NCBI RefSeq assembly: GCF_000315425.1
Contig: NZ_JH992924.1
Span: forward strand, 60,695-124,694
Source: Massilia timonae CCUG 45783
GTDB lineage: Bacteria; Pseudomonadota; Gammaproteobacteria; Burkholderiales; Burkholderiaceae_D
DNA length: 64,000 nt
Direction of reading: 5' to 3'
Shown here piece after piece: positions 2,618 to 47,416 of the stretch. Numbering within the stretch: the first letter of the stretch is position 1; each line of letters opens with the position of its first letter. Under the pieces are notes generated by a model, which saw nothing but the letters and a program-made list of their open reading frames with translations, searched no databases and was not told the DNA's origin. Both the position numbers and the translations under genes were made by a program.

Positions 2618-3736
2618 ATGGCCCATATTCCAGAACGGCGCTCGCTGCGCCGCCGCCTGCGCCCGTACTTCACGGTGTTCGACCTGCCGCTGACCCTGAT
2701 CCTGGCCATGCTGGTGACGATCAGCATGGTCACCATGATGTCGGCCGGCGCCGATTTCCCGGACCGGGTCGAGCACCAGATCCGCAACTTCCTGCTGTCC
2801 TTCGCCGTGATGTGGGTGGCCGCGAACATCGCGCCGCAAACCCTGATGCGGCTCGCGGTGCCGGTCTATGCGGTCGGCGTGGCCCTGCTGGTCGCGGTCG
2901 CGCTGTTCGGCCTGATCAAGAAGGGCGCGCAGCGCTGGCTGCACATCGGCGTCATCGACATCCAGCCGTCCGAGATCATGAAGATCGGCCTGCCGCTGAT
3001 GCTGGCCTGGTACTTCCAGACCCGGGCCCAGGTCGCCGGCTGGAAGCATTACATCGTGGCCGCCGTGATCCTGATGATCCCGGTCGCCCTCATCATGGAG
3101 CAGCCCGACCTCGGCACCTCGCTGCTGGTCGCGTCGTCGGGACTGTACGTGATCTTCCTGGCCGGCCTGTCGTGGAAGGCGATCGCGGCGGTGACGGCGA
3201 GCGTCGTGGCCTTCCTGCCGATCGGCTGGTCGATGATGCACGACTACCAGCGCCAGCGGGTGATGACCCTGATCGATCCGACCTCCGACCCGCTGGGCAA
3301 GGGCTTCCACATCATCCAGTCGATCATCGCGATCGGTTCCGGCGGCGTGACCGGCAAAGGCTATATGCAGGGCACCCAGGGTTACCTGGAATTCGTGCCG
3401 GAACGCACCACCGACTTCGTGTTCTCGGTGTATTCCGAGGAGTTCGGCCTGGTCGGCAACCTGTTCCTGCTGTTGGTCTACCTGCTCTTGATCGGACGCG
3501 GCCTGATGATCGCGGCCAATGCGCCGAACACCTTCGGCCGCTTGCTGGCCGGTTCGATCGCGATGATTTTCTTCACCTATGCCTTCGTCAATATGGGCAT
3601 GGTTTCAGGAATATTGCCTGTCGTGGGGGTGCCGCTGCCCTTCATGAGCTATGGCGGCACGGCCTTCATCACGCTGGGCCTCGGCGCCGGCATCCTGATG
3701 AGCATCCAGCGGCATCGCAAGCTGGTGCAGACCTAG
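2618..3736 (+). CDS. rodA: SEDS peptidoglycan glycosyltransferase RodA
   Basis: 372 residues, about ten membrane segments, with SEDS signatures such as QRWL..G...QPSE near the second loop, DYQRQRV, and the C-terminal GMVSGILPVVGVPLPF...SYGG block. RodA polymerises lipid II glycan strands for cell elongation with PBP2 as partner. It is the last gene of the operon. Its stop codon TAG (3734-3736) lies inside the outer arm of a large palindromic element, so transcript end and the element are physically merged. Confidence 0.97.
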   Translation: MAHIPERRSLRRRLRPYFTVFDLPLTLILAMLVTISMVTMMSAGADFPDRVEHQIRNFLLSFAVMWVAANIAPQTLMRLAVPVYAVGVALLVAVALFGLIKKGAQRWLHIGVIDIQPSEIMKIGLPLMLAWYFQTRAQVAGWKHYIVAAVILMIPVALIMEQPDLGTSLLVASSGLYVIFLAGLSWKAIAAVTASVVAFLPIGWSMMHDYQRQRVMTLIDPTSDPLGKGFHIIQSIIAIGSGGVTGKGYMQGTQGYLEFVPERTTDFVFSVYSEEFGLVGNLFLLLVYLLLIGRGLMIAANAPNTFGRLLAGSIAMIFFTYAFVNMGMVSGILPVVGVPLPFMSYGGTAFITLGLGAGILMSIQRHRKLVQT

Positions 3737-3902
3737 GGAAGCGCTGATTTATTCATGGCGGCGGTCTTGGCACGGAAAAAAGGCGCCCTGCTGCGTTGTA
3801 AATCCTCGCCATACCACGCGGTATGGCTGCGGTTTACGCCTTGCCGGGCGCCTTTTTCCGTCGCCAATCCCATCCGTCAGAATAAAACAGCGCTTCCCTA
3901 GG
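3732..3902. repeat. Nested palindromic intergenic element, copy 1
   Basis: 171 bp. Outer arms 3732-3754 and 3880-3902 are reverse complements over 23 bases with one mismatch. Second arms 3773-3788 and 3846-3860 (CGGAAAAAAGGCGCCC against GGGCGCCTTTTTCCG) match with one bulge. A third pair, GTAAA/TTTAC at 798-802/833-837 of the 3 kb block, surrounds a central hairpin 3808-3827 (GCCATACC-ACGC-GGTATGGC). It starts inside the rodA stop codon and ends 21 bases before the stop of the convergent kinase gene. It may serve as a bidirectional terminator or mRNA end. Two more elements of the same plan occur at 12138 and 46134. Confidence 0.85.
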
Positions 3903-3923
3903 ACGGCCAAGCCGTCCACGCGT

Positions 3924-12137: not shown

Positions 12138-12273
12138 AGGGCACTTCGAAAAACCTGCTGCGCGTTGCAGTTTCGGTCGGGCCGCGTAGGTCTGCGATGC
12201 TCACCGTACGGCCGTACGGTTGCGCTTCTCGACCGAAACTGCTGCCGCTCGCGACGGTTTTTCGAGGCGCCCT
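12138..12273. repeat. Nested palindromic intergenic element, copy 2
   Basis: 136 bp lying exactly between the argS stop (12274) and the SPOR gene. Outer arms 12138-12155 and 12256-12273 match over 18 bases with two transition differences. Inner arms GCAGTTTCGGTCG (12167-12179) and its exact complement (12230-12242) are 13 bp. The centre, ACCGTACGGCCGTACGGT (12203-12220), is an 18-bp perfect palindrome. The plan equals copies 1 and 3, and CTGCTGCG-GTTG is shared with copy 1, while the arm sequences differ. Confidence 0.85.
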
Positions 12274-45667: not shown

Positions 45668-46060
45668 ATGATCGGTAACTACAACTACGGCACCGGCCGT
45701 CGCAAGAGTGCAGTCGCTCGCGTGTTCATCAAAGCTGGCACCGGCCAGATCATCGTGAATGGTAAGCCGGCATCGGAATACTTCTCGCGTGAAACCGGCC
45801 TGATGGTGATCCGTCAGCCGCTGGAACTGACCGGCAACGTCGAGCGTTTCGACATCAAGGTCAACGTGCACGGCGGTGGCGAATCGGGCCAGGCTGGCGC
45901 CGTCCGTCACGGCATCACCCGCGCACTGATCGACTACGACGCAGGCCTCAAGGGCGACCTGGCACGTGCCGGTTTCGTCACCCGTGACGCCCGTGAAGTC
46001 GAGCGTAAGAAAGTTGGTCTGCGCAAAGCACGTCGCGCAAAGCAATTCTCGAAGCGTTAA
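45668..46060 (+). CDS. rpsI: 30S ribosomal protein S9
   Basis: 130 residues. Begins [19 protein letters not shown] and ends with the basic tail RRAKQFSKR whose last Arg contacts P-site t[18 protein letters not shown] is the family signature. Last gene of the operon, followed by two hairpins, a UUCG-capped one and a terminator. Confidence 0.99.
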
Positions 46061-46133: not shown

Positions 46134-46289
46134 GAGCCTGTCTCAGTAGGCGGGAGTCGCTGCTGGCGCGCCTGACAAGCGTGGGCTGCGTTGCTCGTCG
46201 TTGCATGGCGCGCCATGCGGCCTCCTCGCGCCTTGTCCACGCTTGCCATGCATCGCCATCAGCTTCCCCCCGCCTACTGAGACAGGCTC
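46134..46289. repeat. Nested palindromic intergenic element, copy 3
   Basis: 156 bp between the rpsI terminator and argC. Outer arms 46134-46154 and 46269-46289 are a perfect 21-bp inverted repeat. Inner arms CAAGCGTGG (46176-46184) and CCACGCTTG (46237-46245) match over 9 bp. The centre GCATGGCGCGCCATGC (46203-46218) is a 16-bp perfect palindrome. CTGCGTTG before and CGCCTTG after the centre are shared with copy 1. No coding potential is evident. Confidence 0.88.
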
Positions 46290-46378: not shown

Positions 46379-47416
46379 ATGATTAAAGTTGGCATCGTCG
46401 GCGGAACCGGATACACGGGCGTGGAATTGCTGCGGCTGTTGGCCGTTCATCCGGATGTGCAACTGACCGCGATCACCTCGCGCAAGGAAGACGGCCTGCC
46501 GGTGGCCGATATGTTTCCTTCGCTGCGCGGTCGCGTCGATATCGCCTTCTCGAGCCCGGACAAGGCCGATCTGAAGCAGTGCGACGTGGTGTTTTTCGCC
46601 ACCCCGCACGGCGTGGCGATGGCCCAGGCGCCCGAGCTGCTGGCGGCCGGCGTCAAGGTGATCGACCTGGCGGCGGACTTCCGCATCAAGGACCGCGCCG
46701 TCTTCGAAAAATGGTACAAGATCGAGCACACCGCGCCCGAGCTGCTGGATGAAGCCGTCTATGGCTTGCCGGAACTGAACCGCGACGATATCAAGGGCGC
46801 ACGCCTGATCGCCAATCCGGGTTGCTATCCGACCACGATGCAGCTGGGCTTCTATCCGCTGCTCAAGGCCGGCCTGATCGGCGCCGGCAGCCTGATCGCC
46901 GACTGCAAGTCGGGCGTCTCCGGCGCCGGCCGCAAGGCCGAGATCGGCACGCTGTTCTCGGAGTCGAGCGACAACTTCAAGGCCTACGGCGTGCATGGCC
47001 ACCGCCACACCCCGGAAACCTCGGCCCAGCTGGCGCGCTATACCGACCAGAAGGTCGGCCTGATCTTCACCCCGCACCTGGTGCCGATGATCCGCGGCAT
47101 GCACGCGACCCTGTACGCGCGCCTGACGAAGGAAATCGACAACGCCGCCCTGCAGGCGCTGTTCGAAGAACAATACAAGGACAGCGAATTCGTCGACGTC
47201 ATGCCGTTCGGCTCGCACCCGGAAACGCGCTCGACCCGCGGCTCGAACATGCTGCGCCTGGCGCTGCACCGTCCGGAAGGCACGGATACCGTCGTGATCC
47301 TGGTGGTGCAGGACAACCTGGTCAAGGGCGCGTCGGGCCAGGCCGTGCAGTGCATGAACCTGATGTTCGGCCTGCAAGAGTCGAAGGGCCTGCAGCAGAT
47401 CGCGCTGTTGCCATAA
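46379..47416 (+). CDS. argC: N-acetyl-gamma-glutamyl-phosphate reductase
   Basis: 345 residues from ATG 46379 with a GAAGGAACAG ribosome region; the frame upstream lies in the palindromic element and is not coding. NADP-binding [17 protein letters not shown] at the N-terminus, catalytic Cys in ANPGCYPT, and HGHRHTPE. It catalyses the third step of arginine synthesis. Just upstream, AGGCTG and CAGCCT (46316-46335) flank a TTAAAATG box, which may be part of its promoter. Location after rpsI is usual for Burkholderiales. Confidence 0.97.

Follow-up and report, generated by a model that had tools for sequence, protein, structure and literature searches.

A probable miniature transposon of Massilia carries a strand-specific folded core that is common to elements with unlike ends

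The palindrome at positions 46134–46289 of the window, the window being the whole stretch of 64,000 nucleotides from Massilia timonae CCUG 45783 that was analysed, is very probably a MITE. The more interesting outcome concerns what it contains, namely a core of about 50 nt that is conserved as a fold on one strand, here the minus strand, and that is common to elements with unlike ends.

Layout and setting of the element

The element spans 156 bp and is bounded by terminal inverted repeats of 21 bp (46134–46154 on the left and 46269–46289 on the right) that match each other perfectly. The two sides of an inner stem are located at 46170–46184 and 46237–46251, and the centre is occupied by the apical hairpin, a perfect 16-bp palindrome with the sequence GCATGGCGCGCCATGC (46203–46218). 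The nested palindrome that had been noticed in the bare sequence was recovered in this layout with its perfect outer arms and perfect centre, the inner repeat being an imperfect one of 15 nt with 87% identity. Inside the inner stem lies the shared core (46186–46235), which on the minus strand, the strand with the conserved fold, reads CAAGGCG ... CAACGCAG. Written out on that strand, the core of the window copy is 5'-GAC AAG GCG C-GA-G-GA-G ... C-GA-C-GA-G CAA CGC A GCC-3', where GAC stands in the place of the GGC with which the core starts in most relatives. The sequence and the covariation pattern mark a GA-N-GA motif on each side of the core stem, again on the minus strand, one at 46223–46227 and the other opposite it at 46195–46199.

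The element is flanked by housekeeping genes, an S9-like ribosomal gene (45668–46060) before it and an ArgC-like gene (46379–47416) after it, both names being presumptive and based on the translations. Chance open reading frames run across the 156 bp, and the element is apparently without genes. When its folding energy was compared with that of 200 dinucleotide shuffles, z scores of −8.4 for the plus strand and −10.3 for the minus strand were obtained, and none of the shuffles was as good. At gathering scores, the window matched no family of Rfam 15. With the threshold relaxed to E ≤ 1, no family matched over the core in seven loci; all matches obtained were below gathering score, namely miRNA-like ones that fall on a neighbouring hairpin in L116 and two in L001 that stop short of the element.

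Copies, empty site and target duplications

Nine copies are present in the genome of the window, the other eight being 79–91% identical to the window copy, and copies were found in 20 of the 25 genomes of the genus (own genome counted). A whole-genome search for further copies, which had been proposed when only the sequence had been read, therefore did not come back empty, either here or in relatives. Genomes from other families of the order gave core-only matches in 2 of 16 cases. The closest relative, G011, has the site without the element, with flanks that are 98% and 92% identical. This empty site reads TTTTTTGC-TTCT-GGGATAGG and is filled here as TTTTTTGC-AT-[156 bp]-GGGACAGG; the window copy itself lacks an intact target duplication.

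Family A was matched in 78 loci, with both ends recognisable in 72, and as L034 equals L106, 71 distinct copies were counted. An exact 3-bp target duplication is present in 34 of these 71 copies with clear ends (TAA 20, TTA 12, TGA 1 and ATA 1), while mispaired flanks agree in 19%, and the consensus target is C-TNA-G. In addition, 36 of the 71 copies lie at most 12 nt from the stop codon of an ORF that has a coding-like composition and a length of 80 codons or more, compared with 70 of 3081 control flank positions, or 2.3%. Contact with a gene end is on the left-hand side only in 20 copies, on the right-hand side only in 7 and on both sides in 9. Insertion at CTNAG accounts for this gene-end placement, since such targeting would favour stop codons and retain them in the duplication. 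Copy number, distribution in the genus, the empty site, the target duplications and the stop-codon placement all agree with the initial suggestion of miniature mobile elements.

Copies that have lost their centre persist as relic palindromes of 20–29 bp, such as GAACCTATCCCGGTAGGTTC flanked by TTA and TTA, as is expected from slippage at a hairpin and at short repeats. The 12 single ends that were examined in G011, G012 and G020 adjoin relics in eight cases and fragments in four, and a transposon in none. Several of the relics L091, L094–L098, L101 and L102 retain TTA or TAA flanks. A 171-bp form also occurs in several genomes and has a recurrent, CTACGCGCATGTCGC-like insert of ~15 nt in one arm (L006, L062, L065, L066, L067, L076, L079, L083, L084 and L087). 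In plasmid and phage collections the element was without a match at E 1e-5; in plasmids its 82-bp middle gave only weak partial matches at E up to 10, and one core pattern had no exact match in viral contigs.

Other palindromes in the window

The sequence-only reading had united the element with two further three-layered palindromes of the window. For one of them, the kinship holds. This second element (3727–3907) has the same core frame with other ends, GGAAGCGCTG, is flanked by CTAG on each side and is present as a single copy; its core match (3778–3856) scores 51 bits with the covariance model R1 introduced below. The sequence CTGCGTTG occurs in the window on the plus strand only, at 3791 and 46186, and is absent from the other strand. 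For the palindrome at 12138–12273, the layered plan is indeed similar, with arms AGGGCACTTCGAAAAACC and GGTTTTTCGAGGCGCCCT that agree at 89% and a centre that recalls the core loosely. However, it was not matched by the core model when its own genome was searched at E ≤ 0.01, so its membership is unsupported and it possibly represents a different family.

A core common to unlike elements

R1, a covariance model that was built on 15 sequences, mostly of this genus, and covers the core region (76 nt), matched 38 of 120 genomes of the order, in 32 of 78 genera, and 45 of 229 genomes of the class (own genome included in each count). Furthermore, GTDB genomes were scanned with a strict pattern in which the GA pairs were fixed, the positions between them were left free and the second motif was largely fixed. 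This yielded at least 118 stretches in at least 80 loci, with at least 76 distinct cores and at least 65 distinct arm pairs. Among the matches listed were Massilia, Thiobacillus, Denitromonas, Azoarcus, Methyloversatilis, Gallionellaceae, Comamonadaceae, Sedimenticola, Chromatiales and others, as well as a lone Desulfobulbus MAG, which may be mis-binned. Like arms were seen, among the matches listed, in the Massilia records L201, L230, L248 and L249.

The core sits inside MITE-like palindromes that differ in their ends and target duplications. Elements of the genus have the consensus end GARCCTRTCYC with a TNA duplication. In G317, where there are 17 core matches in total, the ends are CCTAAAAACC and the duplications have 5 bp (ATGAT, TTGAA, TTCAA, ATTAT or ATCAT), exact in all seven copies examined; identity between copies is 97–99.6% inside each of two subgroups and ~85–88% between the subgroups. 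The elements of G250 and G162 have GGGCCTGTTAACAC as ends, are inserted at TA, mostly inside CTAG, and carry two cores in 271 bp. G162 has three identical copies, two of which also have 14 nt of flank in common and may belong to a duplicated stretch. In the loci examined, 11 adjacent pairs of cores from two-core elements were found, 9 of them distinct, and all were arranged minus-plus at a distance of 25–29 bp, so that each strand has one core of the folding type. The fold predicted for the G162 element is branched. A second conserved frame round the core, TTCACC..GGTGAG-GCTACG with CAACTGAGGTTTCTAGG-like ends, appears in many genera (L120, L122, L125, L127, L132, L133 and L140).

Pairing is retained while the sequence varies, and on one strand

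The positions left free in the scan pattern vary in a concerted manner. Among the matches listed, the 76 distinct cores have C-G 40, G-C 31, T-A 2, G-T 1 and G-G 2 at N1/N4, and C-G 38, G-C 34, T-G 2, A-C 1 and T-C 1 at N2/N3. Pairing is thus retained in 74 of 76 at each free position, by C-G/G-C swaps around fixed mismatches, and both N2/N3 arrangements are present within Massilia (L230 and L248, among the matches listed). Since the scan pattern itself fixes the G-A steps and, for the most part, the second motif, these were counted in 60 distinct cores found with the model instead. GA-N-GA is complete on both sides in 23 of the 60 cores, and 39 have it on one side or both, which indicates that the steps are common and not essential; elements such as L139 and the one at 3727–3907 retain the frame but pair differently at the positions of the G-A steps. 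The right-side AAC is present in 60 of 60 cores and the left-side AGGCG in 50. The two sides of the second motif also vary together. Of the 43 cores with CAAGG on the left, 40 have AACNC on the opposite side, and all 11 with CTAGG or CGAGG have AACNA there; 6 of the 60 were unclassified.

The same holds for the complete element. An alignment of family A with 71 rows, 70 of them distinct and one 139-bp copy excluded by its length, was folded as minus strand with RNAalifold. Of the 47 consensus pairs, 22 have a double Watson-Crick change, compared with 4 to 7 when partners were slid by 1–3 columns. Standard pairs fill 97.4% of the cells of family A, 30–42% with slid partners and on average 91% with shuffled partners. 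The view, formed from the sequence alone, that the family keeps its fold while its sequence varies was thereby supported, and the covariance model and compensatory-change test suggested along with it showed an excess of such changes.

The mismatches that do occur in this fold are distributed unevenly between the strands. On the minus strand, G.T, A.C, G.A and C.T numbered 102, 7, 66 and 4 in the 65 distant arm pairs among the matches listed, 60, 14, 44 and 1 in the 60 model-found cores, and 96, 11, 88 and 4 in the outer 24 nt of the 71 family A copies; these three counts score all mismatch types alike, and their cells stem from related sequences and are not independent events. Over the whole family A element in the 71-row alignment, where pairs were chosen on Watson-Crick pairing only, G.T outnumbered A.C by 154 to 43, and the asymmetry is weaker when counted by alignment column (27 vs 13, p 0.04). 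In RNA as in DNA, G.T and G.A are tolerated better than the other mismatches, so the asymmetry identifies the strand and not the molecule. From these data we regard selection on a single-strand fold as highly likely.

These observations bear on two other readings of the palindrome. In one, a chromosomal protein would bind the palindrome as a duplex or cruciform, as has reportedly been proposed for BIMEs, and with its perfect 21-bp arms and 16-bp central palindrome the element would look the part. Nevertheless, a fold that is kept on one strand, where G.T and G.A are tolerated and A.C and C.T mostly are not, argues against a plain double-stranded cruciform. The cruciform function considered in the sequence-only reading is disfavoured for this reason, and a binding site would also leave the pairing round fixed mismatches without explanation; we judge it very improbable. 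The other reading is template switching (quasi-palindrome correction), which would keep the arms alike with no selection on the fold. Long, nearly complementary arms are what it would produce, and the centre-deleted relics indicate copying across the hairpin. It is, however, a strand-neutral process that should neither give G.T 102 to A.C 7 and G.A 66 to C.T 4 among the matches listed, nor fix loops and mismatches while the intervening pairs swap, and is to our minds equally improbable.

Gene direction, replication fork and candidate transposases

A role at the host site would be expected to impose one direction relative to genes. Of 81 placements in the wider set, 14 at locus edges and 13 inside a crudely called ORF were excluded, and the remaining 54 among the matches listed show no directional bias (++ 15, -- 15, -+ 12 and +- 12). 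For family A, an antisense position of the conserved strand relative to the abutting gene predominates by 20 to 7, which is suggestive at most. These numbers speak against a cis-acting RNA hairpin that alters mRNA stability or termination at the 3' ends of genes, with selection at each host site, a role that ERIC and NEMIS reportedly have as folded elements in read-through transcripts. The 36 of 71 family A copies at gene ends and the tolerance of G.T, which suits RNA, would agree with such a hairpin. Yet the CTNAG target already accounts for the gene-end placement, and altogether we consider this alternative unlikely.

A preference for the lagging strand was considered and dropped. With the origin placed at dnaA and the terminus at the opposite point, matches lay with and against the fork in ratios of 12/8, 7/10 and 14/7 in three chromosomes, which gives no clear bias; for G314, the count rests on 21 of 25 matches, those excluded being one weak match and the second core of a two-core element in three cases. 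With neither gene-direction nor fork bias in the wider sets, a role of the fold in the element's own life is likelier than one at the host site. The left/right skew of family A (20 vs 7) is not predicted by a pure propagation role and is a possible orientation bias.

The strand asymmetry would also be explained if the elements were REPIN-like and their hairpin were recognised in single-stranded form by a mobilising Y1 (RAYT) transposase. Moreover, a Y1 match is commoner among core-positive genomes of the order than among the others (32/38 vs 45/82, two draws of 120 genomes being assumed to contain the same genomes). On the other hand, G317, with its 17 core matches in near-identical copies, and G333, with 16, have no Y1 match. 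The former shows that a Y1 transposase is not required, and contradicts the RAYT reading, barring a diverged enzyme that escaped the search. Y1 transposition would not be expected to leave target duplications, which are present here, and no GTAG tag was seen by eye beside the core. We therefore hold this mode of movement to be highly unlikely.

No transposase with matching ends was found at the single ends and loci examined, in a search that did not include IS5-type families. Target duplications of the IS5 family are of the TNA or CTAG type, and such duplications would fit both the TNA of the genus and the CTAG round the single element at 3727–3907. For the elements with 5-bp duplications, their CCTA ends had suggested an IS1380-type origin, which was rejected, as no pair of such ends flanked a transposase in the loci examined (three from G317 and those from G038 and G342); seven of these loci also contained no core. 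An attC-like reading was dropped by eye. In the own genome, the Bac_DnaA model also gave eighteen partial matches of 306 bp with equal scores, which point to an insertion sequence of high copy number that includes an IstB-like helper gene.

A proposed mode of spread

The element may well be a non-autonomous transposon whose spread relies on a folded single strand, either RNA or ssDNA. A transposase from elsewhere would act on its terminal inverted repeats and insert it at C-TNA-G sites. On one strand, its core would form a stem containing a CAA bulge and a second small asymmetric loop, the stem including two tandem G-A steps in many members. The same core is carried by MITE-like elements with several kinds of ends and targets in Beta- and Gammaproteobacteria. 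During propagation, a putative trans-acting factor would read the folded single strand, and this reading would maintain the fold. We put the odds that propagation, and not the host locus, is what the fold serves at about even.

A bolder and clearly more tentative extension envisages a superfamily of miniature transposons that spans the class. Despite their different end and target systems, its members would have in common a single interchangeable core with a strand-specific fold, because they would spread via, or be licensed by, a folded single strand that is read by a putative, widely conserved factor. Two-core elements would then have one such core per strand in a branched fold. Should the core prove necessary for spread, Beta- and Gammaproteobacteria would have miniature transposons that rely on a folded single strand, a dependence that lies outside the usual duplex picture of such transposons. 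Near-identical copies in some genomes make direct testing possible, and many unannotated intergenic palindromes would, if this is true, belong to a searchable family.

Comparison with known systems

Among described repeats, REPs are short (20–40 bp), and those of the GTAG type are tied to RAYTs, according to PMC3733652. GTAG- and CGTC-tagged REPs and REPINs resemble our two-core elements in being palindromic, head-to-head dimers, and REPs, like the core, show alternative complementary stem residues (PMC3733652). In contrast to REPs as portrayed there, our elements have target duplications and include copies in genomes without a Y1 match, and at 156–271 bp they do not have the size of a REP or REPIN unit.

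A closer candidate is BRE, a Beta-proteobacterial repeat which PMC3110155 describes as about 75–91 bp long, GC-rich, dispersed and often in tandem arrays, in Bordetella, Comamonadaceae and Azoarcus. Its orientation is given there as independent of the replication fork, and one copy region is said to yield an 80-nt transcript (PMC3110155). Length, composition and hosts agree with those of the core, the comparison being one of descriptions and not of sequences. Whereas tandem arrays are typical of BRE in that account, no adjacent same-strand pair of cores was found in the 85 matches in 80 loci listed. BRE may be related to the core family. Intergenic Bordetella families are also listed in a survey of stem-loop families (PMC2267715). 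Apart from the possible link with BRE, our literature search, in which subscription journals were thinly covered, found no description of the core or its fold.

The ERIC and Correia/NEMIS families resemble the present element in being short, dispersed and strongly folded, with inverted terminal repeats, a target duplication and a placement at gene ends. Neither of those families is known to extend beyond one genus or a few related ones. Here, unlike in ERIC and Correia/NEMIS, one core is found across orders, in elements with different ends and different duplications.
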